This document shows, in pieces, positions 16,307 to 38,720 of a stretch of DNA of 64,000 bases. The stretch is taken from positions 1,503-65,502 of the forward strand of contig JAGOLX010000035.1 of NCBI GenBank assembly GCA_017993835.1, read 5' to 3'. Made by a program: the position numbers and the translations under genes. The DNA comes from Phycisphaerae bacterium (GTDB lineage: Bacteria > Planctomycetota > Phycisphaerae > Sedimentisphaerales > Anaerobacaceae). How positions within the stretch are numbered: the first letter of the stretch is position 1; each line of letters begins with the position of its first letter. The notes beneath the pieces were generated by a model. The model did no database searches. It saw nothing but the letters and a program-made list of their open reading frames with translations, and was not told the origin of the DNA.

Positions 16307-17812
16307 TCACTTGTCCTTCGAGACCGTGAATTCCTTTGTGCCGGTTACTGTACCGTAGAGCTCGTTGGTCTCGTACGTCACCTTGATCGTGAAGGTCTCT
16401 TCGGTGCCTTTGAGCGTCAGGTCTTCCGGTACTCGCCACGAGTACCCGCAGGTGCCGCCTCAGCCAAAGGGCATCGGGCCCTCCGCAACGGTTTGGCCCG
16501 ATGAGTTCGTGATTCGGATCGCCGGAGATACGGACTCGAACAGGTCCAGGCTGCGACCGTTTGGCAACTCGGTGGAGCCCGTCTTCTTCGTCGTGTCTTC
16601 CAGGGCGGAGATCATCGTGCCGGTGGCGGTGTCGCAGAGGGTGGCCTGGACTTGCAGCGTTTCGCCCACTTTGATGCGTCCGTCGGCCGCGGGACTCCTG
16701 AAGACCACTTCCGGCTTCCCCGAGAAATCCATCACGAACGGCTTGTCCTGTCGAATTGCGATGGGGAACACCGCCGGCGCATCCTTGTGCCCGAGCCGCG
16801 AGGTGTCGGTAGCGATGCCGATGCGGCGCAGACCATACCGCACGGCTAGGCGAAACGGCCTGTAGTCGCCGACAGGCAGGCTCAGCTTGCCGTCCTTCTG
16901 CGGGCAGTCGCTGAGATCGATGAAGGCGTCTCGGCTGGATATCCAGCCGAAGTCAATCGTCGGCGCAGCGATGTTCCGACCGCCCGCGCCGGTTTCGAGG
17001 ACCCCGAACGGACCCGAATATGGCGTGACGGTGACCTGGTCTCCCGAGGGTGTTGCCGAGAGGCTGTAGAACGTGCCGTTCGCGAAGCGCCAATACCCGA
17101 GCAGGGGGAGCGACTCGTCCATACCGGACAAAAACGCGCCCATCATCGGTCTGTCATACCGGCCGGCAATCGTGTGAACCTGAGCCAGCACCAGCTCGAC
17201 CTCCTGGGAACCGAGCCGGATCTTCCCTTTGCGGGCGGTCGGAGCGGTGAAGAACATGTAGGAGGCGTCCTCTCCCACCCTCATCAGACGCGGCATGACG
17301 ACCTGCGTGAACACCCCTTGGCCGGGGCCATAGTCGAAGTGAATCTGCACGTTCTCGAACAGGACGCTCCGCGGCATTTCCTGCATGTCGCCAGCGGGAT
17401 TCCTGGCGAGACCGACTACAGGGTCGTTGGTCAGATCGGAGTCATGGTTCGCGTCGAAGTACAGCCGATCGTAGCCTGCACTCGCCGATTCATCGAGCGC
17501 GAAGCAGTATTGCAGTCCCGCCTGGGGGTCGAACAGGCTCATGTCGAACGTGACGGTCCCATAGATGGGTTTGCCCGACTTGAACGTCGGATAGACAACT
17601 CCTGGAGTGGGCGTGTCGCCACAGTCGGGCGCCACCGTGCCCGATTGCAGTTGGCCCTTGGCGGTCCCGTCGTAGTTGAAGATGGAGATTTCCTCCAGGG
17701 GAAAGACTCTGCCGGTCGCCGCCGCAGGTTCGCCCCCGCGGACGAGCATCGCCGGCAGCAGACCCAACGTCGCCACGGCTACCCACAGGGTGAACTTCAC
17801 TTTCGCATTCAT
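16307..17812 (-). CDS. Exported selenoprotein candidate with EF-hand-like repeats and U-x3-C tail
   Basis: 501 residues if the TGA at 16462-16460 is read as selenocysteine (U451); a conventional call stops there at 450. A strong ribosome site (aaggag, 7 nt) and a signal peptide (MNAKVKFTLWVAVATLGLLPA) fix the start. The middle has a calcium-loop-like YFDANHDSDLTND and a beta-rich body; the last ~100 residues form a beta-domain ending PFG-U-GGTCGYSWRVP. After the TGA the frame stays open for 50 codons to a TGA at 16307. The joint matches five paralogs in this window (UxxxC, then YSWRVP). A SECIS-like hairpin follows at 16428-16446. The function is unknown; a secreted or periplasmic thiol/selenol redox role is inferred. 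The annotated coordinates include the read-through. Confidence 0.82.
16428..16446 (-). promoter_or_regulatory. Putative bacterial SECIS hairpin
   Basis: GGTACTCG-TGG-CGAGTACC is a perfect 8-bp stem with a UGG triloop. It begins 13 nt after the UGA, with the loop 21 nt after it. Bacterial SelB recognises a hairpin at about this distance with G and U in the loop (known from E. coli fdhF). The hairpin is inside the coding sequence for YSWRV. Confidence 0.78.
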
Positions 17813-19671: not shown

Positions 19672-21579
19672 CTACTTGAGAAGACGCGTATAGCCGACGC
19701 GCCGCGTCAGGCCGATCTTGTCGAAGTAATCCAGAAGCGGAATCGCGTATTTTCGCGTCGTGTCGAGGACGTACTTGAACTGGACGCTCTCCAGGCCGTT
19801 GTGCTCTTTGATGTACGCGATCAGCCGCTGGCGGGCGTCGGCGACCGCATCCGCGTGGAAGTACAAGTCCTGCTCGACCCGAACGAGTTTCTGTTGTTCG
19901 ATGAGGATTCGGATGGCCCGCTGGACCTGAGGGAGCGTGGTTCGGGTCTTGTCCGCGACCTCCTGCGGGCCGGGCGGACTGAACGGATGCATCTTGAACA
20001 TGGACTCGACGCTCTGCAACAGTTGCTGTTCGGCATCGTTGAACTGCTCGCGGTGTTCCGGCAAGGCCAGGCAGCCCTTCCGCTCGACCAGCCTGCCTTC
20101 GGACCGCAGACGTTCGATCAACGCGTCGAACACCTCCTTGCGGACCGCGGATTCCGCCATCAATTGCTCGCGAGCGATGCCGGGACTCTCCGGCCGCTGG
20201 CGGTGGAAGGCGAGGACGAGATCGAGCAACTGCTGTCGCACCCGCTGGGCGGTCTCGATGTGGACGTAGAGCCTGCCGCTCACAGGGAGGATGCGACCAG
20301 CGCCGGTCAGCTCCGCCAGCAGGGGGGCGAGTTCCTTCAGCGGGGTCTTCGTGCGGACGGAGATCTGCTTCTCATCGGCCGCGACCGACTCGGCGGTCCT
20401 GATGGAGTACTCGACGAAGTCCTTCGGATTGGCGGCAGCCTTGGCCCGCTCGGCCACATCCGCGAGAACGTCGGGATGGGTCCGCTTCAGACGGCGCTCG
20501 ATGGCCTCGACGACGATGCCGCCGCCGAGCGTTCGCATCGGAGACAGCGACCGCAGGATGAAATGGTCTCGCGGCCCGGCCACCACCGACTCATTCAAGA
20601 ACACCTGGATCAGGCATCGTTGACCGGGCTTGAGACTGCCTTCCTGGAACAGGTACACAGCCGCCGTGGTCTCCGAGGTCCCTGTATGGAACTTGACTCG
20701 CGCGCCGTTCTTGAAATCGGCCCGTTCATCGTCGAGCAGCTTGAACTCGCACAGGTACCACTGGTGCGGGGCGAAATAGCCGCTCATGCTGATGACGTTG
20801 CCGCGCTGGATGTCCTTGTGGTCCCATTGGGGGATGTTGATCGCGGCGCACTGGCCTGCCATGGCGCGGGTGCTGTCCCGGCCGTAGACCTGGACTGCCC
20901 GGACGCGACCCTTGTTCCGCTGGGGCAACAGCTCGACCTCGTCGCCGATGCCGATGGAGCCGCAGGTGGGAATCCCGGCCACGATGGTCCCGTAGCCCTT
21001 CGCGGCGAACGCCCGCTCGACCGGGACGCGGAAGATGCCGCTCGCCGTTTTGGGCGTGATGGCCGCCACCATCGTCTTGAGGGCCTCGTAGAATTCCTCG
21101 AAGCCCTGGCCTGTGATATTGGAAATCGGCAGGATCGGGGCATCCTGGAGGAATGTCCCCGTGACAAACTGCCGGATTTCCTGCGTCGCCGCCTGCGTTC
21201 GCTCGGGGGGGACCGCGTCCACCTTCGTCAGCGCGACGATCCCGTGCCGAACGCCTGACAGAGTCAGAATATCGAAGTGTTCGCGGGTCTGGGGCATCAC
21301 TCCGTCGTCGGCGGCCACGACGAGGATGCAACCGTCGATCCCGCTGGCGCCCGCCACCATGGTCTTGACGAAGTTCTCGTGGCCGGGGACGTCGACGATG
21401 CCGACCTCCAGGTCGGCGATCACGCACGGCGCGAAGCCCAGCTCGATCGACATGCCGCGTTCCTTCTCGATCTTGAGCCGGTCGGTGTCACAGCCGGTCA
21501 GGAGCTTGACGAGCGCGGTCTTGCCGTGGTCGACGTGGCCCGCGGTGCCGATGGTGATGTTGTGTTGCTGTGTGGTCAT
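19672..21579 (-). CDS. selB: Selenocysteine-specific elongation factor SelB
   Basis: 635 residues from ATG 21579; the longer frame to 21822 runs through repeat R10 and into selA and is rejected. The G domain opens with GTAGHVDHGKTALVKLLTGCDTD-type motifs (P-loop GHVDHGKT at residues 14-21), then DVPGHENFVKTM and LTKVDAV. EF-Tu-like beta domains follow, and the C-terminus has the winged-helix repeats of SelB (ending near LDYFDKIGLTRRVGYTRLL) that bind the SECIS hairpin. It delivers Sec-tRNA(Sec) to UGA codons in the cytosol. It is downstream of selA, with 85 bp of repeat-bearing DNA between them. Confidence 0.97.
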   Translation of the reverse strand: MTTQQHNITIGTAGHVDHGKTALVKLLTGCDTDRLKIEKERGMSIELGFAPCVIADLEVGIVDVPGHENFVKTMVAGASGIDGCILVVAADDGVMPQTREHFDILTLSGVRHGIVALTKVDAVPPERTQAATQEIRQFVTGTFLQDAPILPISNITGQGFEEFYEALKTMVAAITPKTASGIFRVPVERAFAAKGYGTIVAGIPTCGSIGIGDEVELLPQRNKGRVRAVQVYGRDSTRAMAGQCAAINIPQWDHKDIQRGNVISMSGYFAPHQWYLCEFKLLDDERADFKNGARVKFHTGTSETTAAVYLFQEGSLKPGQRCLIQVFLNESVVAGPRDHFILRSLSPMRTLGGGIVVEAIERRLKRTHPDVLADVAERAKAAANPKDFVEYSIRTAESVAADEKQISVRTKTPLKELAPLLAELTGAGRILPVSGRLYVHIETAQRVRQQLLDLVLAFHRQRPESPGIAREQLMAESAVRKEVFDALIERLRSEGRLVERKGCLALPEHREQFNDAEQQLLQSVESMFKMHPFSPPGPQEVADKTRTTLPQVQRAIRILIEQQKLVRVEQDLYFHADAVADARQRLIAYIKEHNGLESVQFKYVLDTTRKYAIPLLDYFDKIGLTRRVGYTRLLK

Positions 21580-21650
21580 CCGTCCTATTCGTCCTATCCG
21601 TCCCACAAGTCCCATAGGACGGATGGGACCTATGGGACCAATAGGACGTG
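21580..21650. repeat. Palindromic repeat R10 (cctattcgtcctat / atgggacctatgggac)
   Basis: The arms ccgtcctattcgtcctatcc and gggacctatgggaccaatag are imperfect inverted copies of a short unit. The element fills the selA-selB spacer and is open in the selB frame, which creates a false N-terminal extension rich in GPIGPIRPMG. Confidence 0.65.
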
Positions 21651-21664
21651 TTCTCGTGTGCTTT

Positions 21665-23089
21665 TCACGCGCCCGCCGAGAGCGCCGCGGCCACCGCCTC
21701 GACAAGGATCGCATCGTCGCCATCCCGCAGCGTTCGCGGGTCGAGGAGGACCTGGTCGTTCTGAATCCTGGCGAAAACCGGAGTCTCGTGGAGCCGCAAT
21801 CCTTTGGCCAGCGAATCGGCACTGATCTTCCTGGGCGTGATCGCCACGAGCGTCGTCGCCAGATTCTGCGAGGGCAACGACCCGCTGCCCATCTGTGAGA
21901 ATCCGCTGATCGTGGTCACGTCCGCGGCAACGTTCGTTTCGCGCAACTGCGAGGCCAGTCGCTCCGCGTGCCTGCGGATCTCGTCCGCGCTGCGCCGCAG
22001 CATTTGCAGCGTCGGCACCTCGCGCAGCGCGACGGCCTCGTCGAGGAACAGCTTGAGCGTCGCCTCCAGGACCGCCATCGTGAGCTTGCCCACGCGAACG
22101 ATCCGTGCGAACTGGTTCTTGCGGACCTTCTCGATCAGGGTCTTTCTGCCCAGGATGATGCCACCCTGCGAGGCGCCGATCAGCTTGTCGGCGCTGCTGG
22201 TGATGATGTCGGCCCCCGTGCGGACCGAGTCGGGAAGCGTGGGCTCCGGCTCGAACCCGAACTGAGAGAAATCGACCAAGGCGCCCGCCCCCACGTCGTC
22301 GATCATCACGAGGTTGTGCCGGTGTGCGATCTCGACCATGGCGTCGAGCGGGACCTCCGCGGAGAATCCCTGGATCTTGTAGTTGCTCGGGTGTACGCGG
22401 AGGATCGCGGCGGTGTTCTCGGTGATCGCGTTCTCGTAGTCGCGAGGGTGCGTCTTGTTCGTCGTGCCGACCTCGACCAGCTTGGCGCCGCTGAAGGCCA
22501 TCACCTCAGGCAGCCGGAACGAGCCGCCGATCTCGACGAGCTGGCCGCGAGAGACGATCACCTCCTTGCCCTTGGCCACCGTGTTGAGCACGATGGCGGT
22601 GGCTGCCGCGTTGTTGTTCACCACGGTCGCCGCCTCCGCGCCGGTGAGCCGCTGGAGGAGCCGCTCGATCTGCTCGTCGCGCCGGGACCGTTTGCCGGTG
22701 TCACGATCCACCTGGAGCAGGGAATAGCTTCGCAGGGTCGCCTGGATCTGCTCGACCGCCCTGGCGGAGAGCACCGCCCGGCCCAATCCCGTGTGCAGGA
22801 TGATCCCGGTGGCGTTCACCGCCCGGCGATAGAACGGCGCCGCCAGCGTCTCGATTCCGCGTGTCGCCGCCGAGACGACCTGCGCACGAATCGTCGCTTC
22901 ATCCGCATCGGGCGTTGGCTGGGCCAGAAGCCGCCGGCGAATCTCCTCGACCGCTTCGCGAACGCAGTCCGCGACGAGTTGACGCCCGTGCTCGGCCGCG
23001 AGGGATTCCATCTCGGGCTCCCTCAGGACCGAATCCACCGAAGGGACCCTCCGCATCAATTGTTGGGTCTGTGCATCCATGAAGATCAT
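21665..23089 (-). CDS. selA: L-seryl-tRNA(Sec) selenium transferase
   Basis: 474 residues, the usual SelA length. SelA converts Ser-tRNA(Sec) to Sec-tRNA(Sec) using selenophosphate and PLP. Motifs include TGIILHTGLGRAVLS, the VVNNNAAA segment, and the PLP lysine K302 in SSADKLIGASQGG. The ATG at 23089 has aggagg 6 nt upstream. It forms an operon with selB and the small UGA gene, and is divergent from the four-gene selenoprotein operon starting at 23405. Confidence 0.97.
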   Translation of the reverse strand: MIFMDAQTQQLMRRVPSVDSVLREPEMESLAAEHGRQLVADCVREAVEEIRRRLLAQPTPDADEATIRAQVVSAATRGIETLAAPFYRRAVNATGIILHTGLGRAVLSARAVEQIQATLRSYSLLQVDRDTGKRSRRDEQIERLLQRLTGAEAATVVNNNAAATAIVLNTVAKGKEVIVSRGQLVEIGGSFRLPEVMAFSGAKLVEVGTTNKTHPRDYENAITENTAAILRVHPSNYKIQGFSAEVPLDAMVEIAHRHNLVMIDDVGAGALVDFSQFGFEPEPTLPDSVRTGADIITSSADKLIGASQGGIILGRKTLIEKVRKNQFARIVRVGKLTMAVLEATLKLFLDEAVALREVPTLQMLRRSADEIRRHAERLASQLRETNVAADVTTISGFSQMGSGSLPSQNLATTLVAITPRKISADSLAKGLRLHETPVFARIQNDQVLLDPRTLRDGDDAILVEAVAAALSAGA

Positions 23090-23404: not shown

Positions 23405-23944
23405 ATGAACAGAAGAGAACTCATCGCCACCGGCGTCGTCATCGTGCTCGGCATGCTCGTGGCGTTCCCTCTCAGCAGGTTGTTCATCCCGTCGGCCCCA
23501 CGACAGGCAAGTCTCGTCGGCTCCGAGACGTCGATCCACCAGACGGACCACCAGGGGAACGACTGGTTCATCACGCCGGTGCGGGGGCAACCCGCGGTCG
23601 TGGATCCCAACGCGGCTCAGGCAAAACCTGTGATCGTCGTGAAGACCAACGTCAGCATGAACGGGCGGGAGGCATGGATCGGACTGGTCCTCCAGGATCG
23701 CGATGGCCGGCAGTACCAGCCGATCATCGTCAAGAGCGGGGTCCGGCTGTCGCCCCCGAAACTGAGAATCGTCAACGAAGCCGGAGAGGTGCTCCTCCAT
23801 GACAGTTTCCAATATGGCTGAGGTGGCACCTGTCGGCGCTCGTGGCGAGTGCCAGAGGGGTTCAAGGGCGACTTCCAGGTGCAAGTGGACATCGATCTTG
23901 GTCCGTTCCAGGTCGAGCACGAACGACCTTGGCATTCCCTCTGA
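23405..23944 (+). CDS. Small anchored selenoprotein candidate, copy 1
   Basis: 179 residues when the TGA at 23819-23821 is read as selenocysteine (U139); otherwise 138. gagagg precedes the ATG. One N-terminal membrane anchor or signal (ELIATGVVIVLGMLVAFPLS) is followed by a single beta-rich domain (AWIGLVLQDRDGRQYQPIIV) ending FQYG-U-GGTCRRSWRVP. The frame then continues as a conserved tail (EGFKGDFQVQVDIDLGPF) ending PWHSL. The next gene starts exactly 30 nt after this true end, the same spacing as the other two junctions in the operon. Its paralog at 25427 has the same length and the same U position. The role is unknown; an exported redox protein is inferred from the U-x3-C motif. Confidence 0.82.
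23835..23853 (+). promoter_or_regulatory. Putative bacterial SECIS hairpin
   Basis: GGCGCTCG-TGG-CGAGTGCC, 8 bp with one G-U pair and a UGG triloop, the loop 21 nt after UGA. Compared with the other copies the stem differs at two positions, and pairing is kept. Confidence 0.78.
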
Positions 23945-23974
23945 CAAGGCGCCGGGCCGACGCGGAGGGCCCAG

Positions 23975-25396
23975 ATGACCAAGCGACGCTGGACCATCCT
24001 GCTCGCGGCGATCCTCCTCGGCGTGGGATTGCTATGGCTCGTCCTCGGCCGCGAGCCCATCCAGGAGGGACGATGCAGGCTCAAACTCAAGCGGGTCGGC
24101 CAGCCCGGCGGACTGACCGGAATTGCATACCGTTTCCTGGACCGGCCAACCTCAGACAGTAACGGCATCCGCGACCTGCCGGAGGGGTTCGACAAGCCCT
24201 ACTATTATCGCGTCCGAGCCAATGACGCCGAAATTGCCCTCGTTGTGAATGGGACCAATCCATGGACCCTGTGTCTGGATACCGATCAAGACGGCCTCCT
24301 GTCCAACGAGAAGCTGTTTCAGGGCAAGATCCGCCAGATACGCGACTGGGGCAAGGACCAGCGGCATTATCTCTTCGGACCAGTCGAACTGGCCTTGCCA
24401 GATGAGTCAAGTGCACGCACCACAAGGTTCTGGTTGCTTGGATCCAGGATGGACGTCGCCGGGCAGCACGTGACCGAGTTGCCAAGAGTATTTGCGATCT
24501 ACCCCGCGGGGTATCGCACGGGACGGCTTCGCATCCAGGGACAGGCATACAACGTGGCCATCCTCGACGGGGACTATGATGGCTTGTTCAGCCCGGTCGA
24601 TCTTGCCAAGCGAGACCACATGAGACGGCCCGTGTGCGACTACTTCGCCATCGATCTCGACAAGAACGGCACATTTGAGCAAGACCTGTACCAACGTAAT
24701 GAGACCAGACCACTTGGCAGACTGGTGCTGCTCGGGGGCGTCTATTATGCGATTGACATCAGCGGCAATGGCCAGGAACTCGCGCTTTGGCCGATCGACC
24801 CCGAGAGAGGCACGCTCATCCTGGATCACGCGGATTGCGAAATCCAATGCAGGCTGTGGTCCGACGCCGCAGACCAGTGGATGACTGTGCCGGCCGGCCA
24901 AAAAGAACTGTCGCTGCCGGTTGGGAAGTACAGCATGGCTCGCGTCATCGTACGGGCCGCAGATGCGTCCGGCAGCACCTTAGAAGCCGCGTGTACGCGG
25001 GACTTTGGCACTCTGTCCCTGTTCGAAGTCAAAGCGGGGGAGACGACGCGACTCGACATCGGTCCGCCGTTCACCTGCACACCCAGAGTTGCCAAGACAG
25101 ACGACGGGACGGTCTCCATCGAGCCGATTCTCACGGGCCGCGCGGGGGAGGAGTATTCCATCATCGTGAAGCGAAACGGCAAGTCTGTGCCTGCCCCGGC
25201 CATGACAATCGTGGATGAGAAAGGGACCGTGTTGGAGACGGGCAAGTTCGAGTATGGCTGAGGTGGCACCTGCCGGTACTCGTGGCGAGTGCCAGAAGGG
25301 TTCAAAAGCAAGTTTCAGGTGCAGGTGGACATCGACCTCGGACCGTTCGAGGTCACGCACGAGCGACCGTGGCATTCGACCGGATCGGCCGATTAA
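23975..25396 (+). CDS. Large exported selenoprotein candidate with EF-hand-like loops, copy 1
   Basis: 473 residues with the TGA at 25259-25261 as selenocysteine (U429); otherwise 428. A ggagg ribosome site precedes the ATG. A membrane anchor (WTILLAAILLGVGLLWLVLG) leads into a body with three calcium-loop-like motifs (DTDQDGLLSNEK, DGDYDGLFSPVD, DLDKNGTFEQD). The C-terminal beta-domain (RAGEEYSIIVKRNG) is the same as in the small copies and ends KFEYG-U-GGTCRYSWRVP, then the tail EGFKSKFQVQVDIDLGPF. The stop is TAA at 25394. It is a paralog of the gene at 25997; the pair small-large is tandemly duplicated. Calcium binding is suggested by sequence only. Confidence 0.83.
25275..25293 (+). promoter_or_regulatory. 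Putative bacterial SECIS hairpin
   Basis: GGTACTCG-TGG-CGAGTGCC, 8 bp with one U-G pair and a UGG triloop, 21 nt after the UGA at 25259. Confidence 0.78.
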
Positions 25397-25426: not shown

Positions 25427-25966
25427 ATGCATACAAAGAGGAGCAATCTGCCCTATATCGTCGTTGGCGTCATTGCCGCAGCCATTCCATTATCGGCCCT
25501 GGTCACCGCGCCGCCAAGTGCGGCCGATGCTTCGTCCGTTTTGCAGGAGGAGCCGGGAATCCTCCGGCAGACCGACGAACTTGGCAACAACTGGGTCCTG
25601 CAACAGGCCGGCGGACCGTCGGTTCTGAGCTTCCACAAGCCGGGCTCGCCCATCACGGTGAAGACGGACGTTCGCAACACCGGTTCGGGCGTCGTGCTGA
25701 TCGGGCTGGTGCTGGAGGGCCGGGCCGGGGAAACTTACCGGCCGACCGCCATCAGAAACCGGGTCCCGGCGGACCCCGCGCATTTGCAGATTGTGGATAG
25801 GCAAGGCAATGTGCTCGACGAGGGCTACTTCGAATATGGCTGAGGCGGCGCCTGCCGGTACTCGTGGCGAGTACCCTCGGATGCCTCCGGCAAGTTCCAG
25901 GTGCAGGTGGACATCGACCTGGGCCCATTCAGCGTCAAGCACGACAGACCCTGGCATTCCCTCTGA
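25427..25966 (+). CDS. Small exported selenoprotein candidate, copy 2
   Basis: 179 residues with the TGA at 25841-25843 as selenocysteine (U139), identical in length and U position to copy 1; otherwise 138. The N-terminus is a signal or anchor (LPYIVVGVIAAAIPLSALV). The beta-domain (VLIGLVLEGRAGETYRPTAI) ends YFEYG-U-GGACRYSWRVP and continues to the tail KFQVQVDIDLGPF and PWHSL before TGA at 25964. The ribosome site is weak (gatagaaag), which fits translational coupling to the gene 30 nt upstream. This terminal TGA is a real stop: the next gene begins 30 nt later and the frame after it has no family similarity. Confidence 0.82.
25857..25875 (+). promoter_or_regulatory. Putative bacterial SECIS hairpin
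   Basis: GGTACTCG-TGG-CGAGTACC, a perfect 8-bp stem with a UGG triloop 21 nt after the UGA at 25841. Confidence 0.78.
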
Positions 25967-25996: not shown

Positions 25997-27388
25997 ATGA
26001 CGAAGCGACGCTGGACCATCCTGCTCGCGGCGGTCGTCCTGGGCGGAGGACTGCTCTGGGCACTCGTCGGCCGGGAGCCCGTCCTGGAGGGGCGGTGCAA
26101 GCTGACTCTCAGGAAGGCCGATTCGCACAGTCAACTGATGTCGCTGGCCTCTCAGATCATCCTTCCCTTGGATGGCAAGCCGGATCGCGCGCAGGACCTC
26201 CCCGACGGCTTCAGGCGGCCGACCTTCTATGAGATCAAGGGCGCCGACGGCCCGGTCCTGATGGCCGTGGACTACTCCCGGGACCTCCGACTGTGCATCG
26301 ACACGGATGGCGACGGCATTCTCTCGGAGGAGCGGTGTCTTGTGCCTACGGTCGTCACGGCTACGCGGAGAATGAGCCAATTCTACCGGTTCGGACCGAT
26401 CTCGCTGTCTTCCCGCACGAGTGGGGGCAGGATCGACGGCCGGTTCCACATCCGGTGCAATCGTGCAGATACGCCGGAGACGCTGACCGCACACCCGGTA
26501 TTCCTTCGCACGGGCAAGCTCCGCCTGGCCGGACGAACGTACCGAGTGGCCCTGGTGGATGGCGATCACGACGCTTCGTATCACTCGATGCTTTCGTTGC
26601 CCCTGGATCGTCCATGGCGAGTGCCCGCCTGTGACGTGTTCGCCATCGATCTGAATGGCGATGGGACATTCGAGTACTCGATGTCCGATCGATCCGAGGT
26701 CATGCCGCTCGGAAGGCTGGCAAAGGTCGAGGACGCCTATTACGCCGTCGATGTCGCCTCGGACGGACGGAGTCTTGCCCTTTCCAGGACCGAGCCGCAA
26801 TTCGGGACCCTGGTCGTGGAACCGGACGATGCGACCATGGAGTTGAGACTGTGGTCCGACGCCGCGGATCAGCATCTTCCTCAGGGCCGCCAGTGGCAAC
26901 TGCCCGCCGCCAGGTACAAAGCGGTTCATGCCATCCTCAAGAAGACGGATGCCTCGGGAGATGAATGGACGTTCTCGTCGAACCTCTCCTCGCCTTTCAC
27001 CTATCTTGGACCGTGCGAGTTCTTCACGATCGAGCCGGGCAAGACGACGTCGATTCGGATCGGGCCGCCTTTCGTCGTGCGAGCGGACGTGCGGAAGATC
27101 GACGCCGTGACGGTGGAGATCGGTCCCGTCCTCGTTGGCTGTGCGGGAGAGCAATACCGGGCGGACTTCCGACGAAACAACCGTCGCCCGCCTGAACGAG
27201 AATTCAAGATCGTGGACGAGAAAGGGACCGTGTTGGAAACGGGCAAGTTCGAGTATGGCTGAGGTGGCACCTGCCGGTACTCGTGGCGAGTGCCAGAAGG
27301 TTTCAAGGGCAAGTTCCAGGTGCAGATCGAGATGGACCTGGGGCCCTTCGAAGTCACCCAAGAAAGGAGTTGGCACTCCATCGAGTAG
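25997..27388 (+). CDS. Large exported selenoprotein candidate with EF-hand-like loops, copy 2
   Basis: 463 residues with the TGA at 27260-27262 as selenocysteine (U422); otherwise 421. It has the same plan as the gene at 23975: an N-terminal anchor (WTILLAAVVLGGGLLWALVG), calcium-loop-like motifs (DTDGDGILSEER, DLNGDGTFEYS), and a C-terminal beta-domain ending KFEYG-U-GGTCRYSWRVP with the tail FKGKFQVQIEMDLGPF. The stop is TAG at 27386. It is the last gene of the operon: a strong terminator follows 25 nt later. The upstream leader (gcgccgggcc..gcgcggaggg) is nearly the same as before copy 1, which marks the duplication unit. Confidence 0.83.
27276..27294 (+). promoter_or_regulatory. Putative bacterial SECIS hairpin
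   Basis: GGTACTCG-TGG-CGAGTGCC, 8 bp with one U-G pair and a UGG triloop, 21 nt after the UGA at 27260. Confidence 0.78.
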
Positions 27389-29455: not shown

Positions 29456-29485
29456 ACTTGAGTGGTGATTAGAAGGGAGAACATG

Positions 29486-30733: not shown

Positions 30734-31632
30734 CAGATCCGACTGGAACCATCGTGTATACGTGTCCTTACGTGCCGGCGGAGTGGATCGCGGCGCACGG
30801 CCTCCGGCCGCGCCGGCTGATCCCGCTGCCGACCGAGAGCCAATCCGTCGCACTGCGGCTGGAGGGCCTGTGCCCCTACGCCCGGGCCTTTGTCAACGAC
30901 GCCGCAGCCGAGAACGCCGACGGAATCGTCGTCACAACCCTGTGCGACCAGATGCGCCGGGTCTACGATCTGCTCGTTCGCGACAGCGGCAAGCCTGCGT
31001 TCCTGCTGAACGTGCCGAAGACCTGGCAGACGGTCGCCGCACAAAGGCTCTACGTGGACGAACTGAAACGCCTGGGGCGCTTTCTGATCCGCCTCGGCGG
31101 TCGGACGCCATCCAACGAAGACCTCGCGAAGACAATGGTCGAATATGTAGGGTGTGCTGTGCACACCATCTCTCCTATGCCTCGGAAAGACGGCGTGCCG
31201 ATCGCGGTGGTCGGAGGCCCCTTGATGCAGCGAGATCGCGTCCTCTTCAATCTTATCGAGGACAGCGGCGGACGGGTCGTCCTCGACGCCACCGAGACCG
31301 GTCTGCGAGGACAACGACGACCCTTCGACCGCAGACGTCTCGTCGAAGATCCGCTGCTGGAACTTGCCGATGCGTATTTCAGCATTCCCGATGCCTCCCG
31401 CAGACCCAACAGCGGATTGTACAAATGGCTCAAAAACGAACTCGTCAAAACGAACGCCAGGGGGATCGTCTTTCATCATTACCTGTGGTGCGACGCCTGG
31501 CGGGCGGAGCTGTCGAGATTGAGAGAGTGGGCGAGCCTGCCCGTGCTCGGGCTCGACGGCGATGCGTATGATGAGACGAATCTGGCCCGTTCGCAGAACC
31601 GCATTCGGGCGTTTCTGGAGATGTTGCATTGA
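30730..31632 (+). CDS. 2-hydroxyacyl-CoA dehydratase-like subunit, short form, with in-frame repeat
   Basis: 300 residues. It is a shorter relative of the HgdB fold (TIVYTCPYVPAEWIAAHG; LEGLCPYARAFVNDA; ADGIVVTTLCDQMRRVYDL). Four-base ATGA overlaps or similar coupling join it to both neighbours. Codons for VGCAVHT near residue 141 come from a piece of repeat R5 (31147-31168), in a region between the two lobes of the fold. It probably forms a heteromer with the flanking subunits; the substrate is unknown. Confidence 0.8.
   Translation: MTDPTGTIVYTCPYVPAEWIAAHGLRPRRLIPLPTESQSVALRLEGLCPYARAFVNDAAAENADGIVVTTLCDQMRRVYDLLVRDSGKPAFLLNVPKTWQTVAAQRLYVDELKRLGRFLIRLGGRTPSNEDLAKTMVEYVGCAVHTISPMPRKDGVPIAVVGGPLMQRDRVLFNLIEDSGGRVVLDATETGLRGQRRPFDRRRLVEDPLLELADAYFSIPDASRRPNSGLYKWLKNELVKTNARGIVFHHYLWCDAWRAELSRLREWASLPVLGLDGDAYDETNLARSQNRIRAFLEMLH
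31147..31168. repeat. Repeat R5, partial copy in frame
   Basis: gtagggtgtgctgtgcacac is the same unit as the arms of the R5 palindrome at 7467-7534. It is read through in the short dehydratase-like gene. Confidence 0.7.
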
Positions 31633-33008
31633 CCGACGCGCCGGCACAGATCAGCTTGGAGCAGTGGGACCGCCGATACGACCGCTTGCACGCGGCGGGC
31701 TTGAGCGAGCCCGTCTATGGCGGACCGCTCAGCCGGCACGTGGCCGACGGCGACACCCGACTGCTCAAGCTCCGCTATGACAATTCGCCCGCGGCCCTGC
31801 GACTGTGGAACTTCCTCCTGACCGAGGAGGATCGGCTCCAGGCCGCCCGCGCCAGCGGCAAGAGACTCGTCGGCACGATGAAGGACCTCGGCACCGTGCC
31901 CGTGATGGCGTACAGCCTCGAGAATGTCACTGCGTTCTACCCCGACGGCGCCTGGTGGATCCCCTGCGTGATGGAGCTGAACGCGGGTCTGCTCCAGATC
32001 GCCGACTCGCTCGGCATCGACGAGTCGTTCTGCCCGGTCCGCGCGATGCTCGGCGCATTCGTCACCGAGGCGCACTTCCCCATTCCCGACTTGCTGACGT
32101 GCAGCGTCGGCGCGACGTGCGATGATTTCTCCGCGATCGCCCAGCGCCTCAATGGGCTGGGCTACCCGATTCTGTGGTGGGAGATCCCGCACCGCAGGAC
32201 CCCCGAGCCCGGTGAGGAGGTCGTGACGCTGCCCGGCGGCTTCTCGGCGCCGAGGAACCAGGTCAGATTCGTTGAATCAGAGTTGTGCCGAGTTCGCGCG
32301 GCACTGGAGGAGACCGCCGGCCGGACCCTCGATGAAACAACGCTCGCCCAGGGAATCGCGAAGGCGAATCGCGTGCGCGACCTGCTCGATCGACTTCGAC
32401 ATCTGGCGTTCACGGCCCCGCGATGTCCGATGCCTGCCCTGGAGATGCTGATTGCGGAAATGCTCGCGATTCACTTCTGCTCCGATCGCGAGGAGACGAT
32501 CCGGGTCCTGGAGGAGCTGCTCGACGAGGTCAACCATCGCGTGGCGGCGCGGACAGGGTACCTGTCGCCCGACGCAGCCCGAATCTTCTGGGTGAACCCG
32601 GTGGCCGATTTGCAGGTGATGAACCTGCTGGAGGACTGCGGCGGGCGGGTCTGCGGCACGGAGTACCTCTTCACCCACGCGCTCGACGCCATCCCGACGA
32701 CCCTGCCTCCGATGGAGGCGCTGGCCCAGATGGCGTTGGCCGACCCGATGGTCGGCTCGGCAATCGATCGCGCGACGAGGATCGTCTCCGATATCGGGCG
32801 ATTCGGCGCGGAAGGCGTGCTCATCTCCCGCATCCCGGGCGCAAGCCACTGCGCTCTCGAGGGCGAAATCATCGGCCAGATCGTTCGAGAGCAGTGCGAC
32901 GTGCCTGTCGTGGAGGTCGAGGTGCCCTCCATCACGGACGCGACGCAGGCGACGCTGTGCACCCGGCTGGAGGCGCTCGTGGAAACGGTCAGGGAGAAGA
33001 GACAATGA
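31629..33008 (+). CDS. 2-hydroxyacyl-CoA dehydratase-like subunit, third
   Basis: 459 residues from a TTG that overlaps the upstream stop (TTGA). The body has the two-lobe HgdB-type plan (GTVPVMAYSLENVTAFYPDG; DLLTCSVGATCDDFS; then RIFWVNPVADLQVMNLLEDC and GVLISRIPGASHCALEGE). Cys residues in CSVGATC, CGTEY and HCALEGE could bind an Fe-S cluster. Together with the two upstream subunits and the downstream activase it forms a four-gene unit of unknown substrate. Confidence 0.8.
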   Translation: MTDAPAQISLEQWDRRYDRLHAAGLSEPVYGGPLSRHVADGDTRLLKLRYDNSPAALRLWNFLLTEEDRLQAARASGKRLVGTMKDLGTVPVMAYSLENVTAFYPDGAWWIPCVMELNAGLLQIADSLGIDESFCPVRAMLGAFVTEAHFPIPDLLTCSVGATCDDFSAIAQRLNGLGYPILWWEIPHRRTPEPGEEVVTLPGGFSAPRNQVRFVESELCRVRAALEETAGRTLDETTLAQGIAKANRVRDLLDRLRHLAFTAPRCPMPALEMLIAEMLAIHFCSDREETIRVLEELLDEVNHRVAARTGYLSPDAARIFWVNPVADLQVMNLLEDCGGRVCGTEYLFTHALDAIPTTLPPMEALAQMALADPMVGSAIDRATRIVSDIGRFGAEGVLISRIPGASHCALEGEIIGQIVREQCDVPVVEVEVPSITDATQATLCTRLEALVETVREKRQ

Positions 33009-33016
33009 AGAGAAAC

Positions 33017-33190
33017 TCGAAATGCGAAATGCGAAACAAGCACAAATGACCCAAACCCAAAATCCCAAACAAACCATCGGAAGGGCGACAGCGTTTCTGT
33101 CATTTGGATTTTGGACCTTTGGATTTGTTTCGGATTTCGAGCTTCGGATTTCGGGTTTCCGCGCCTCGCGGCTTTGGATTTTGTGCTTCT
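33017..33190. repeat. Palindromic repeat R11 (cgaaatgcg / ttcggattt family)
   Basis: The left part (gaaatgcgaaatgcgaaaca, then caaatgacccaaacccaaaa) is roughly mirrored by gtcatttggattttggacct and tcggatttcgagcttcggat on the right. It fills the spacer before the activase gene, and the false upstream extension of that frame (FGFRASDFGFPRL) comes from it. Confidence 0.7.
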
Positions 33191-33200
33191 GAGGAATGAC

Positions 33201-33992
33201 ATGACGGTCTATGCAGGAATCGACGCCGGGTCGAGAGCGATCAAGGTCGTGCTGATCGACGTGAACGGCTCACGGATCATCGCCAAGGCCCAGGCCGATC
33301 AGGGCATCGAGCAGGACAGGCTTGCCTGCGGGCTGTTCGCCAGGACTCTCGCGGACAACGGCATCGGCGAGTCCGACGTTCGGCGCATCGTCGCGACCGG
33401 CTACGGACGCAGCGCGATCCACCTCGCCCATACGACGATCACCGAGATCACCTGCCACGCGGCGGGCGTACGCCACCTCGTTCCCGATGCCAAGACCATC
33501 ATCGACATCGGCGGGCAGGACAGCAAGCTCATTCGCCTGGACGGCGCCGGCAAGGTGCGGGATTTCGCCATGAACGACCGCTGTGCCGCGGGCACGGGCC
33601 GGTTCCTCGAAGTGGTGGCCGACCGACTGAGCGTCCCGGTCGATAGTCTCGGTCGAATGGCGTCAAAGAGTCGCAACCCCGCCGCGATCAGCAGCATGTG
33701 CGTGGTCTTCGCGGAAACCGAGATCATCGGTCTGCTGGCAGGAGGGCGGCCGGGAGAGGACATCGTCGCAGGCGTCCAGAACGCGATTGCCTCGCGGATC
33801 GTCGCGATGGCGGGTCGCAGCGTCGAACCGCCCATCCTCTTCACCGGCGGCGTCGCGCGGATCTCGGGCATGGAGACCGCCTTGCAGACCGCTCTGGGGC
33901 AACCGGTCTCGATCTCCCCCGCGCCGCAGATGACCGGCGCGCTCGGCGCCGCCTTGCTCGCGCGACGGTTTTGTGAAAACGACGAGGCGTGA
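33201..33992 (+). CDS. ATP-dependent activase of 2-hydroxyacyl-CoA dehydratases (HgdC/BadF type)
   Basis: 263 residues from ATG 33201 (gagg 6 nt upstream). It has the ASKHA ATPase fold: YAGIDAGSRAIKVVLID phosphate loop, IIDIGGQDSKLI second loop. The two Cys that hold the subunit-bridging [4Fe-4S] cluster are in NDRCAAGTGRF and SSMCVVFAETEII, as in HgdC. Each ATP-driven cycle passes one low-potential electron to the dehydratase partner. It follows the three dehydratase-like genes and precedes selD on the same strand. This system requires anoxic conditions. Confidence 0.93.
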   Translation: MTVYAGIDAGSRAIKVVLIDVNGSRIIAKAQADQGIEQDRLACGLFARTLADNGIGESDVRRIVATGYGRSAIHLAHTTITEITCHAAGVRHLVPDAKTIIDIGGQDSKLIRLDGAGKVRDFAMNDRCAAGTGRFLEVVADRLSVPVDSLGRMASKSRNPAAISSMCVVFAETEIIGLLAGGRPGEDIVAGVQNAIASRIVAMAGRSVEPPILFTGGVARISGMETALQTALGQPVSISPAPQMTGALGAALLARRFCENDEA

Positions 33993-34221: not shown

Positions 34222-35859
34222 ATGATCGATAGGGAACGAAGGAAACGAGTGATGCAGCGGTCCATCAGGCTGGGGCACTGCATCTGCGACGCGAAGCAGC
34301 CTTGTCCCTGCCCGACATTCAAACAGAAGGGCATCTGCTCCTGTGCAGGCGAGCGGGAAGACAGTCCGACCGGGCCGGTCCGCCTGACCAAGCTCGTCGA
34401 GAAAGCGGGATGCGCGTCGAAGATCGACCAGGCGTTTCTCAAGAGCGTGCTGAAGGACCTGCCGCCGGTGGACGATCCCCGCGTCCTGGTGGGCATGGCC
34501 GCCGGCGACGACGCAGGCATTTACGACATGGGCGACGGCCAGGCCCTGGTGCAGACGGTCGATGTCTTCACCCCCTCGGTGGACGATCCGTACACCTTCG
34601 GCCAGGTCGCGGCGGCCAACTCCGTCAGCGACATCTACGCCATGGGCGGCACGCCGATGACCGCGTTGTCCGTCATCGGATTCCCCGTGCGGAAGATCCC
34701 CGATCAGGCCATGCTCGAGATCCTCCGTGGCGGCATCGACAAGATGAAGGAGGCCGGCTGCGCCATTATCGGCGGCCACAGCATCAACGATCCCGAGGTC
34801 AAAGCGGGCTTCGCGGTCACTGGGCGGATTGACAAGGGCCGCGTCGTCACGAATGCCGGCGCGAGGCCGGGCGATGTACTGATCCTGACGAAGCCTCTGG
34901 GCACAGGGATCGTCGCGTTCGCCGCCCAGATCGACCGGGCCCGGCCCGAGAGCGTCGCGGCCACGGCTGCGTCGATGACCTCCCTGAACAAGACCGCCGC
35001 GGAACTGATGGTCGAGTTCGGCGCGCATGCCTGCACCGATGTGACGGGCTTCAGTCTCATGGGCCACCTGGCGGAGATGGCACGCTCGAGCGGTGTGGAC
35101 GTGCGAATCATCTGGGACGATCTGCCCCTGTTCGAAGGCGTGCTGGAATACGCAGCGGGTGGCATCCTGCCCGGCGCGATCGAGCGGAACAAGGAATCCT
35201 GCGCCGACCGGGTCGTGCCCTCCGAGCGTCTGCCGCAGGAGATGGTAGATATCTGCTTCGACGCCCAGACCTCGGGCGGATTGTTGATAGCAATCGAGCA
35301 GGCCAAAGCAGCGCAGTTGTTGAAGGCCCTCCACAATCGCGGCGTCCCGGCGGCAACGATCATCGGCAAGGTCGCAAGCAAAGGGGCAGGCCTGATTCAT
35401 CTCGAAACCACGGGCGCACGCAAGATCCCGTCGCCCGAGTCTGCTCGTACGGCCGAGTCCCCTCAATCATCAATCATAAATCGTCAATCATCAATGCAAG
35501 AGGTTCCCTGCTGTGCCGACGCCATCAGCAATGTAGCACCCCCGCCCTCGGGGGTGAGTTCCACCCAGCCGGGGGCGGCTGGGCTACACGAGACGGCCCA
35601 GGTCCAGGCGGCGTTCAAGCAGTTCCTCAGCGCCGCCAGTTCGCCGCATGGTCTGGATGCCTATACGAAGCAGGCCATGGCGCTGGCGCTGTCGGTTGCG
35701 CTGCGGTGCGAGCCGTGTCTGAAAATGCACTTGACGAACGCTCGCAAGAAGGGCTTCACGCAGGCGGAGATCGACGAGGCCGCCTGGATGGGCATCAGTT
35801 TCGCAGGTTCGCCTGCGATGGTGTTCTACCAGCAGGTTCTTGAAGCCGCAGACAAGTAG
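34222..35859 (+). CDS. selD: Selenide, water dikinase fused to an AhpD-like domain through repeat DNA
   Basis: 545 residues in one frame. SelD makes selenophosphate from selenide and ATP, the selenium donor for SelA. The catalytic pair is C64 and K67 (KAGCASKI), followed by AAGDDAGIY and VFTPSVDDPYTFG metal/ATP motifs. Odd features are a Cys-rich N-terminal extension of about 45 residues (GHCICDAKQPCPCP; ICSCAGE) and a C-terminal AhpD/carboxymuconolactone-decarboxylase-like domain with C496-E-P-C499 (ALRCEPCLKMH). The joint, about residues 416-456, is low-complexity and is encoded by a gtcaatcatcaat repeat and by R2 (35533-35587), so a real fusion and two genes with a chance open spacer are both possible. 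The start at 34222 has ggag 9 nt upstream. Confidence 0.92.
   Translation: MIDRERRKRVMQRSIRLGHCICDAKQPCPCPTFKQKGICSCAGEREDSPTGPVRLTKLVEKAGCASKIDQAFLKSVLKDLPPVDDPRVLVGMAAGDDAGIYDMGDGQALVQTVDVFTPSVDDPYTFGQVAAANSVSDIYAMGGTPMTALSVIGFPVRKIPDQAMLEILRGGIDKMKEAGCAIIGGHSINDPEVKAGFAVTGRIDKGRVVTNAGARPGDVLILTKPLGTGIVAFAAQIDRARPESVAATAASMTSLNKTAAELMVEFGAHACTDVTGFSLMGHLAEMARSSGVDVRIIWDDLPLFEGVLEYAAGGILPGAIERNKESCADRVVPSERLPQEMVDICFDAQTSGGLLIAIEQAKAAQLLKALHNRGVPAATIIGKVASKGAGLIHLETTGARKIPSPESARTAESPQSSIINRQSSMQEVPCCADAISNVAPPPSGVSSTQPGAAGLHETAQVQAAFKQFLSAASSPHGLDAYTKQAMALALSVALRCEPCLKMHLTNARKKGFTQAEIDEAAWMGISFAGSPAMVFYQQVLEAADK
35533..35587. repeat. Palindromic repeat R2 inside the selD-ahpD frame
   Basis: gtagcacccccgccctcggg on the left and cagccgggggcggctgggct on the right match R2 in reversed orientation. 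It is translated as about VAPPPSGVSSTQPGAAGL. Confidence 0.85.
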
Positions 35860-35866
35860 GCGAATG

Positions 35867-37285
35867 CTACTTGTCCATCGGGGGCACGTACCGGCCATCT
35901 TTGAGGTGGATGGTCGTATCAACGGCCTTCGCCTCGAAGGGACGGAAGTCGATCACCGCCGTGATCGTGCAGGTTCCTGTGAGATTCTGGGGTATTCGCC
36001 ACGAATACGCACAGAAGGAGCTTCACCCATACTCCAGATTCGCCTCGGCAATCTGCTTGCCGTCAGCGTCCTTGACCAGCAGTTTCGCCGGTGGCTCGTG
36101 CCGACTGTTGTTTCTTCGCAGGGTGCTGAACGAGCCGCCGAAGGCATCCACAATCTGCGGCTCCAGCTCGATGACTGCGGGCTCGGAGGTCTGTCGCACG
36201 TCCACCCGGATCGTGAGCGGCAGCACGCTCGCCAGAGTCGCTGCGTGATTCGGCTCGATGGCAACTTGTGGCCCTGCTTGGCCATATCGTCCGCGCGAGG
36301 TCCAGCGCGCGCCGTTGCTATCGACAATCTCCATCGCGATGTTGCGGACTTCGTATGTGCCAGCGAGTGCTTTCGCCTGGCCGTCCTTGAACTCAAGCTG
36401 TTGGAACTGCTTAGGCGAGCTGAGCCCGACGGACTTCACGTTGGCAGGAGCCTTGACCGTGCCGAAGGTCGGCCGGGCGGTTCGGATCTGGAGCGTCCCG
36501 CCGTCGGGCGAGGCCTCCAAGGCGTACCACGTCCCCGCGATTTCCGTGTACCGCGCGTAGGAGAAGCTCTCCGTGAGACCACGCGCGTGCGAGAAGGAAC
36601 CGTTTTCGTCGAGGTCCACGAAGAAACGGTCCCCGCGGAACACGCCTTGTTCGTAATCGTTGAACAGGCCGTTGGAGTCCAAGTCGGCCAAGGCCACCTT
36701 GCACCGTTTGCCGCCGAATGTCGCTTCGCCCATCATGATGGTCGAGTCGCGACAATTGGCATGGATTCTCTCTACCGGATTGTCCGTGTCTTTGTAGGGA
36801 AAGGCGGTGAAGTCGAAGGCGTAGGGGATCGTCTTTCCGCCGGCAGAGACGGAGAGCGTGATTCGCACCGGTTCCGCGCCGCGAGTTGTGCCGAGTTGGA
36901 ATCCGAACCTCTCGTTCTCCGGCGTGATCCGATTGTCGTTGTTCAGGTCCGCGTAGAGCGTGTCGTGGCCGGTCCCGGTGCCGCGGCTCTCGTCGAGGAC
37001 GAGCGTGAAGACGCTGTCTGGCGCATCACCGTACCTGGCGGCGTAATACACCCGCCTCCCGGACTGGTAGTCCGGCTCGGAGATGAGCTTCTCGTCGGGC
37101 CCTTCTCGTGGGTAGAGCCATTGGCAATTGCCATAGTGGATCAGGCCGATGACGTTCGGTCCGTGAAACGGCATCAGTTGGACGGTCTGGGAATTCTCCG
37201 CTGCTTGGGCCTGGGCCAAACTGTTGCTCGCCATCGCCAAGCCAACACCTATGCGAAACAGGATGTTTGCTGCAAGGCTCCGCAT
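35867..37285 (-). CDS. Exported selenoprotein candidate with EF-hand-like loops (divergent member)
   Basis: 472 residues from ATG 37285 with the TGA at 36025-36023 as selenocysteine (U421); conventional reading ends at 420. The signal peptide is LAANILFRIGVGLAMASNSLAQA. Calcium-loop-like motifs are DLNNDNRITPE, DLDSNGLFNDYEQ and DLDENGSFSH. The C-terminal beta-domain ends NLEYG-U-SSFCAYSWRIP and continues through a 51-residue tail (QNLTGTCTITAVIDFRPF) to TAG at 35867. It is the most divergent copy, yet keeps U-x3-C, YSWR and a covarying hairpin. It is convergent with selD (7 bp between stops), and its start is about 110 bp from selC. The ribosome site is weak. Confidence 0.82.
35991..36009 (-). 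promoter_or_regulatory. Putative bacterial SECIS hairpin with compensatory changes
   Basis: GTATTCG-TGG-CGAATAC, a 7-bp stem with a UGG triloop 21 nt after the UGA. Relative to the other copies, a C-G pair has become T-A on both sides, together with the codon changes TAC to TAT and GTA to ATA. Confidence 0.8.
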
Positions 37286-37507: not shown

Positions 37508-37777
37508 ATGGAAAAGCATAGAACAGGCGCATCGGTCGTGCTGATCGCTATCGGGGCTGCCCTGCTGCTCTATGGCCTTTCTTTGAGGGCCGAGGTTGCA
37601 GCACCCTCCGACGAGCAGAGTCAGGTCCAGGTTCAAGTCCCGTCGGCGCCTGAGCCGCCTGCCTCGCAGGGAACTGTCGCCAAGGACGAGGTCACGCAAG
37701 GGGAGCCAAACCGGGTCAAGCCGCCGGCCAAGGAGCCGACGAAGACCCCTGCGGCCTGCCCTACCTGAGGCAAGTAA
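37508..37777 (+). CDS. Small membrane-anchored selenoprotein candidate ending in CPTU
   Basis: 89 residues when the TGA at 37766-37768 is read as selenocysteine (U87); the stop is then TAA two codons later. An N-terminal anchor (VVLIAIGAALLLYGLSL) is followed by about 55 residues of Pro/Gln/Glu-rich linker and the tail AACPT-U-GK. Cys84-x-x-Sec87 is a classic CxxU redox pair carried at the end of a flexible tether, as in thioredoxin-reductase-type tails. A UGU-loop hairpin follows the UGA at SECIS distance, beyond the TAA. It starts 17 nt after selC and is followed, 64 nt later, by a NapH-like ferredoxin-type membrane protein, a possible redox partner. ATG 37508 is preferred over GTG 37502. 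Confidence 0.65.
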
Positions 37778-37783
37778 CTCCCC

Positions 37784-37800
37784 GCCGTGGTGTCCACGGC
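37784..37800 (+). promoter_or_regulatory. Putative bacterial SECIS hairpin
   Basis: GCCGTGG-TGT-CCACGGC, a perfect 7-bp stem with a UGU triloop, the loop 22 nt after the UGA. It lies after the TAA, so it is under no protein-coding constraint. Confidence 0.68.
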
Positions 37801-37841
37801 TCAGACAGACTCAGATCGACACTCCCCCCGAACAAGGAGCC

Positions 37842-38720
37842 ATGGCAATCGCTGCCCATAAGACGAGACTCGCGGGTGTTTTCGCCAGACTGCAACCATA
37901 CCGGCTGTGGATTCAAACCGCATTTCTTGCGGTCTGGCTGCTCCCCATCGGCACGCGCCTTCACGGCATCTGCGCCCCGGTCTTCCACTGCTATGGCTGT
38001 CCGCTCGCGACCTTCGGCTGTCCCATCGGCATGTTGGCGCATGCCAGCGCGTTGCACCTGATCCCCTTCATCACAATCGGCCTGCTGGTTCTGTTCGGCG
38101 CCTTCGTGGGCAGCCTGTTCTGCGGCTGGGCCTGTCCCTTCGGGTGGCTCCAGGACCTCGCGGCCAAGATCCCCACGCCCAAATTCGAACTGCCTCGCTG
38201 GATAGGGCACTTCCGCTTCGTCGTGCTGGGCGCGACCGTCCTGGCGATCCCCTACTTCTTCGGCATTGAGCATCCGCTGTCCGTCTGCATGGTCTGTCCG
38301 GCCGGCGGGCTGGAAGCGGGCCTTCCGAACGTCGTGAAGCAGGCCGCGGCCGGCCAGCCAATCGACTGGCCCAACACCCTGAAACTGACGATTACCGGCC
38401 TGTTCTTCGTCGCCATCCTCTTCTTCCGACGGCCCTGGTGCCGGATTCTGTGCCCGCTGGGGGCGATCCTCTCCGTGTTCAACAAGGGCTCCGCCTTCTT
38501 CCTGCGATTCGACGCCAACCACTGCACCGAGTGCGGCCGCTGCAACAAGCTGTGCAAGTACAACATCGAGCCCGAAAAGAGCCCGAACGACCTCCGCTGC
38601 ATCCGTTGCCTCGAATGCACCCGTTGCGCCCTGGGCGCGCTGACCCCTTCCACAATCCTGCACCGCCAAAAAGGATCGCCCGCCCCAACGCCGCCAGCGG
38701 ACCCGGGAATCCCGACGTAA
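37842..38720 (+). CDS. NapH-like membrane ferredoxin-type protein
   Basis: 292 residues from ATG 37842 (aaggag 4 nt upstream). Four to five membrane segments carry the NapH/RnfC-type motifs CYGCPLATFGCPIG and FCGWACPFGWLQD (4-Fe-4-S-like or quinol-site cysteines), then RILCPLGAILS. At the C-terminus are two 4Fe-4S ferredoxin motifs, CTECGRCNKLCKYNIEP and CIRCLECTRCALGAL. Such proteins pass electrons between the quinone pool and periplasmic or cytosolic partners. The pairing with a CPTU-tailed anchored protein 64 nt upstream suggests thiol/selenol electron transfer (inference). A longer upstream frame lacks homology and is rejected. Confidence 0.88.
   Translation: MAIAAHKTRLAGVFARLQPYRLWIQTAFLAVWLLPIGTRLHGICAPVFHCYGCPLATFGCPIGMLAHASALHLIPFITIGLLVLFGAFVGSLFCGWACPFGWLQDLAAKIPTPKFELPRWIGHFRFVVLGATVLAIPYFFGIEHPLSVCMVCPAGGLEAGLPNVVKQAAAGQPIDWPNTLKLTITGLFFVAILFFRRPWCRILCPLGAILSVFNKGSAFFLRFDANHCTECGRCNKLCKYNIEPEKSPNDLRCIRCLECTRCALGALTPSTILHRQKGSPAPTPPADPGIPT

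Follow-up and report, generated by a model that had tools for sequence, protein, structure and literature searches.

The gene at 35867-37285 of the 64,000-nucleotide stretch of Phycisphaerae bacterium DNA analyzed here (contig JAGOLX010000035.1, positions 1,503 to 65,502; hereafter the window) almost certainly codes for a member of an apparently undescribed selenoprotein family, here given the provisional name Sec-MG, in which an in-frame UGA is predicted to be read as selenocysteine (Sec) by means of a selenocysteine insertion sequence (SECIS) downstream. The Sec-MG family is widespread across Planctomycetota and extends to related phyla. Support for this reading comes from a conserved UGA, covariation in the RNA that follows it, the accompanying sel genes, a switch from Sec to Cys that goes with loss of the hairpin, and the predicted fold.

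The gene and its in-frame UGA

Translated with TGA as Sec (U), the minus-strand frame gives 472 residues with a single U, residue 421, in the context ...LEYG-U-SSFCAYSWRIP... This bears out the joint EYG-TGA-SSFCAYSWRIP of a preliminary description of this DNA, which had also called the gene the sixth and most divergent paralog and placed it next to selC. The window does contain six family members, this one included, and the tRNA-Sec gene lies ~110 bp away on the opposite strand in a divergent layout. The divergence is real for the residues beside the UGA (SSFC vs GGTC or GGAC), but by profile score the 16307-17812 member, at 82 bits vs 106 bits, is the more divergent.

From Planctomycetota we collected 211 distinct homologous domains with a TGA, all at the one alignment column occupied by codon 421; the same collection holds four sequences without it, one with Cys, one with Arg (AGA), one with Tyr (TAT), and one true alpha-2-macroglobulin. 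As expected of a selenoprotein, coding conservation is seen in the alignments on both sides of the conserved UGA, and the whole Sec machinery, selA, selB, selC and selD, lies within the 64-kb window (Table 1). Two paralogs also end in TGA, so internal and terminal UGA are told apart by context.

Covariation of the stem and its codons

The hairpin that we read as a bacterial SECIS (bSECIS) carries a Val to Ile change (GTA to ATA) that had been described as matched by TAC to TAT. It is a true double change: pair 36005-35995, formed by the third base of TAT and the first base of ATA, is U-A in this gene but C-G in the five remaining window members, and the stem stays paired. Across 97 nonredundant members, RNAalifold recovers the stem unprompted, with five of six pairs doubly changed. 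The seven-pair stem is 96.6% paired in these sequences vs 81.8 +/- 0.8% after shuffling of the 3' arms across sequences, and double-change cells number 86 vs 14.5 +/- 6.5 (a level reached in 0 of 500 shuffles). If the partner is offset by one base, pairing falls to 22-34%. When the peptide is held fixed and synonymous codons are drawn at family usage (110 sequences), pairing is 56% vs 96% in the real sequences, 98 of which are individually distinguishable from their recoded versions (p<0.05).

As the hairpin encodes [X1]-S-W-R-[X2]-P, the codons flanking the Trp codon must be mutual reverse complements, and amino-acid positions therefore covary while synonymous codons are fixed. Among 210 members, the inner codon pair around the Trp is TCG/CGA in 145, ACG/CGT in 12, TTG/CAA in six, CGG/CCG in five and GCG/CGC in two, and the outer pair is TAC/GTA in 66, CTC/GAG in 44, TAC/GTG in 40, GCC/GGC in five, TTC/GAA in four and TAT/ATA in three. 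The residues thus change together, as Y/V, L/E, F/E or C/A at the outer position and S/R, R/P, L/Q or T/R at the inner, through codons that remain mutually reverse-complementary. The decisive part of the covariation is purely synonymous: after the loop, Arg is encoded by CGA (81) or CGG (7) in 88 of 88 nonredundant members whose codon before the loop begins with T, and by CGT in all six in which it begins with A. Codon choice is also far off background, with TCG used for 86 of 89 Ser vs 22% and CGA for 81 of 94 Arg vs 13%.

With the hairpin codons excluded from the tree, independent contrasts give ~18 compensating vs ~0.1 opposing for pairs -1 to -5, no single pair being significant alone; pair -6/+6 is uninformative in the contrasts because U-G is common there. 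The Arg coupling and these contrasts answer the test proposed in the preliminary description, a codon-level alignment searched for covarying synonymous sites, and arms that vary independently, the outcome it had named as contrary, appear only where the UGA itself is gone. Its claim that protein motif and RNA pairing are both retained stands for Sec, Trp, Pro and the pairing, but not for the four stem codons, at which the protein yields to the RNA. Selection on both protein and RNA is supported, with RNA outweighing protein at the stem codons.

Folding energy contributes less. Minimum free energy z-scores of single 63-nt windows are mostly weak (-0.6 to -2.6), and the mean energy shows a modest gain over synonymous recoding (-13.9 vs -12.0), so paired-column counts rather than energies serve as the main evidence.

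Agreement with known bSECIS elements

A 2026 catalogue covering 119 bacterial selenoprotein families describes bSECIS elements as hairpins 16-37 nt downstream of the UGA whose small loop carries a G close to its start (PMC13188914). When these published rules, with the usual energy cut-off of -7.5 kcal/mol, are applied to 191 members, the spacer is 18-24 nt in 191 of 191, a G lies within the first two positions of a loop that reads UGG or GUGGC, and 173 fold at or below the cut-off. The catalogued families and Sec-MG share an in-frame UGA, a downstream hairpin, the sel machinery and Cys homologs at the Sec site. They differ in that the Sec-MG domain is immunoglobulin (Ig)/macroglobulin-like rather than thioredoxin-like, occurs in up to 11 copies per genome, and has very rare Cys forms.

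Forms without the UGA

Cys homologs at the Sec position, another feature expected of a selenoprotein, are found as four orthologs in one genus of the order (G439, G498, G500 and G503), which read QCCGNYR[LF][SN]WTPP with TGC at the Sec site. These keep only 1-3 of 7 stem pairs, and their four genomes give no SelA match; a congener with SelA (G501) has the TGA form with 7 of 7 pairs. Beyond this genus, the sampled sequences contain no Cys form. Stem pairs are missing from the Arg and Tyr members as well. One locus (L080, G110:C186) holds a tandem duplicate, with the UGA in one copy and TAT without the hairpin in the other, a possible natural gain or loss pair. As Trp and Pro are kept in the hairpin-less forms, these two residues are constrained by the protein, and the flanking stem codons mainly by the RNA.

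Distribution and Sec machinery

The family occurs in 28 of 392 sampled Planctomycetota genomes, a count that includes a true alpha-2-macroglobulin (G236) and a Cys form (G439); within the window's order, 62 of 161 genomes have it. In the window's own genome the domain profile matches 11 times. The G236 match, which has no stop, was considered as a Cys form and rejected. A DNA pattern made of the UGA and the hairpin, scanned over 257 Gb of genomes, gives at least 131 sites in at least 112 loci; 131 of the 131 matches listed are in frame in the family domain, and their titles include Planctomycetota, Verrucomicrobia and Lentisphaerae. One pattern match in the window's genome (L037) was rejected, as it falls outside any open frame of the family. 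The parts downstream of the UGA are often short (40-50 aa), and some members (L052, L032, L004 and L094) continue past the Sec domain with additional domains, such as F5/8-type C, Laminin_G_3 in L032, or with 180-535 residues, which puts their UGA far from the C-terminus.

Rfam tRNA-Sec matches at E ~1e-7 are mostly other tRNAs and appear in 13 of 14 control genomes. Given this lack of specificity, only strong matches were counted, along with SelA. By this measure 21 of the 26 TGA-bearing genomes in the phylum sample have a strong tRNA-Sec. Family members adjoin sel genes in other genomes too; in G058 the closest relative of the 35867-37285 gene (33% identity) likewise diverges from selC, starting ~325 bp away.

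Table 1. Sec-MG genes, SECIS parts and sel genes in the window, with a linked ferredoxin gene
Feature	Position	Strand	Details
Gene under study	35867..37285	-	472 aa; predicted secreted/membrane-anchored selenoprotein; N-terminal hydrophobic segment
C-terminal macroglobulin/Ig-like domain of this gene	~residues 355-464		carries Sec421 and Cys425
In-frame UGA (Sec421)	36023..36025	-	
Hairpin read as bSECIS	35992..36008	-	7-bp stem GUAUUCG/CGAAUAC, UGG loop; 21 nt UGA to UGG; 5' arm GUAUUCG 36008-36002, loop UGG 36001-35999, 3' arm CGAAUAC 35998-35992
Long paralog, subfamily MPFGUGGTCGYSWRVP	16307..17812	-	UGA 16460-16462; stem-loop 16429-16445
selB, Sec-specific elongation factor	19672..21822	-	PF09107/PF25461/PF00009
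selA	21665..23089	-	PF03841 E 4.5e-140; TIGR00474
Short paralog	23405..23947	+	UGA 23819-23821; stem-loop 23836-23852; terminal stop also TGA
Long paralog	23975..25396	+	UGA 25259-25261; stem-loop 25276-25292
Short paralog	25427..25966	+	UGA 25841-25843; stem-loop 25858-25874; terminal stop also TGA
Long paralog	25997..27388	+	UGA 27260-27262; stem-loop 27277-27293
selD fused to C-terminal CMD/AhpD-like domain	34222..35859	+	
selC, tRNA-Sec, UCA anticodon	37396..37490	+	ARAGORN; Rfam RF01852 76.1 bits
NapH/MauN-like membrane ferredoxin	37596..38720	+	candidate electron donor

Some features of the neighborhood recur elsewhere. The full-length fusion of SelD to a carboxymuconolactone decarboxylase (CMD)/AhpD-like domain is found in L093, L209, L216 and L219. 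Between the selenoprotein cluster and selD, the region 29462-33992 (+) encodes a double-cubane anaerobic reductase (NF040772), a second HGD-D protein and a BcrAD ATPase; this set recurs in L209, L212 and L093/L215, and its first gene also in L131. The pairing of reductase and BcrAD ATPase is again placed between family members and selD where it recurs. One question is whether the set feeds SelD with electrons or with selenium in a strongly reduced state. A large protein encoded at 45713-48196 (+) has relatives (CarboxypepD_reg/Ig-repeat in L093) beside family members in L212, L093, L086, L085, L217 and L019.

Predicted fold, location and role

The AlphaFold model of the 35867-37285 protein has a mean predicted local distance difference test score (pLDDT) of 90 and a predicted template modeling score of 0.83, and that of the 179-aa paralog a pLDDT of 83.6. 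In these models the Sec sits between two strands. The C-terminal domain and the model of the 179-aa paralog resemble macroglobulin (MG) domains, matching 2p9r (chain B) with a Foldseek probability of 1.00 and a VIA Z of 7.0-7.4, which is too low to set the match apart from a common Ig arrangement. No PDB match explains the N-terminal part of the long protein. Of 191 members, 184 have a Cys between Sec and Trp. An N-terminal hydrophobic segment is present in many members and a C-terminal transmembrane segment in some, from which we infer an extracytoplasmic location.

Taken together, SelB with Sec-tRNA(Sec) would read the UGA as Sec, the signal being the stem-loop 21 nt downstream (7-8 bp with a UGG loop) acting as a coding-region bSECIS. 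The mature protein would then be exported, with the Sec, usually paired with a Cys four residues on (UxxxC), placed on a loop of the macroglobulin-like Ig domain. The role that we favor, tentatively, is that of an extracytoplasmic Sec/Cys redox center or a center handling metals or chalcogens, possibly reduced through the linked NapH-like ferredoxin. Nine further loci with selC or family members also contain NapH-like ferredoxin genes or part of one.

Weighing the readings

Several observations weigh against the Sec-MG reading or parts of it. Taken in isolation, the hairpin of the 35867-37285 member folds at -6.0 kcal/mol, the weakest of the six and slightly above the usual cut-off (-11.0 over 41 nt from the UGA), and in its 63-nt window an alternative fold is better by 1.5 kcal/mol. 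Five draft genomes with TGA-bearing members lack a convincing tRNA-Sec; four of them have SelA, and G110 only a weak SelA fragment. Among two more drafts with TGA members, G525 has no SelA and G524 a SelA fragment only. The structure matches (Z 7-7.7) fall in a range where common Ig arrangements also score. The Cys is exactly at +4, and the sole Cys between Sec and Trp, in 170 of 191 members, and seven have none, which weakens a strict UxxxC mechanism. The evidence for the functional role consists of gene linkage and fold.

Standard annotation would end the gene at the UGA, and the often short downstream parts could fit a true or regulated stop, with two products or a truncated protein and a downstream frame that is separate or decaying. 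We consider this very improbable. The 40-120 aa downstream form, together with the upstream strands, a single conserved domain whose fold is predicted at high confidence, the Cys orthologs read straight through, and UGA is also the terminal stop of two paralogs, so that context separates both uses. That same terminal use speaks against a reassigned code or a suppressor that decodes the UGA as some other amino acid, with the hairpin incidental. The Arg and Tyr members at the UGA column would be in keeping with such decoding, yet UGA forms accompany selA and selC, the Cys form accompanies their absence in one genus, and no non-UGA member examined retains the hairpin, leaving this explanation with a very small probability.

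The conserved nucleotides might alternatively reflect protein constraint on C-x-x-S-W-R-[VI]-P only, with pairing as a by-product, and Trp and Pro are indeed kept both in the Cys orthologs and in true alpha-2-macroglobulin (WRVP). However, the same peptides recoded synonymously lose much of their pairing, radical residue pairs change jointly (S/R to R/P, L/Q or T/R), and the usage of Ser TCG and Arg CGA is far from background; constraint on the protein only is thus extremely improbable. A hairpin is by itself no proof of SelB binding, and the UGG loop comes without the kind of bulged U seen in E. coli fdhF, which raises the question of another RNA function, such as terminator, regulator or mRNA stability. 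Here the distance from the UGA is informative, being 21 nt in 181 of 191 members and always a multiple of 3. Moreover, the hairpin is lost exactly when the UGA is lost, it has no T-run, and it fits the bSECIS rules, making an RNA function other than SECIS very improbable. A selenoprotein with a coding-region SECIS accordingly remains by far our preferred reading of the gene.

Relation to known systems and implications

In E. coli fdhF, the SECIS is a hairpin in the coding region right after the UGA that has a bulged U and is recognized via its apical loop. The Sec-MG hairpin likewise lies inside the coding region directly past the UGA, but it has a UGG loop on a continuous 7-8 bp stem with no bulged U, and its stem constrains protein sequence across a phylum. 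At the protein level the nearest likeness is to the MG domains of alpha-2-macroglobulin (PF01835 MG2; PDB 2p9r, 4zjh and 4u4j), whose fold the Sec-MG C-terminal domain is predicted to resemble. A true bacterial alpha-2-macroglobulin is even caught by the Sec-MG profile, aligned at '..YG....W+VP'. However, Sec-MG members score 12.9-14.8 bits against MG2, under the curated cut-off of 32.8, and are without the thioester protein architecture, while the alpha-2-macroglobulin found is without the Sec/Cys loop.

No Pfam family scores above cut-off for Sec-MG members, and five members compared with NCBIfam give no match at E up to 10. The catalogue of 119 families has no entry with the Sec-MG motif or domain (PMC13188914), and a literature search, with incomplete coverage of subscription papers and preprints, found no such planctomycete selenoprotein family. 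The deep-Sep paper names search methods that need Cys homologs as a limitation (PMC12013277); as Cys homologs are so rare here, such searches would tend to miss Sec-MG.

Sec-MG is almost certainly a bacterial selenoprotein family, apparently undescribed, and an unusually clear case of a coding-region SECIS constraining protein sequence. It is conceivable, if unlikely, that a dedicated selenium redox system operates outside the cytoplasm in Planctomycetota and related phyla, in which many Sec-containing macroglobulin-like paralogs, encoded alongside a complete sel operon, are reduced through a NapH-like membrane ferredoxin, and in which the hairpin has lastingly shaped the protein through reverse-complementary codons around one Trp. 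The family adds a large group of selenoproteins that annotation pipelines would truncate at the UGA. With hundreds of paralogs and orthologs, it also provides a clean natural case of an RNA element inside a gene shaping the protein, one that combines joint radical residue changes, synonymous switches that follow the pairing and, in one genus, reversion from Sec to Cys together with loss of the hairpin.
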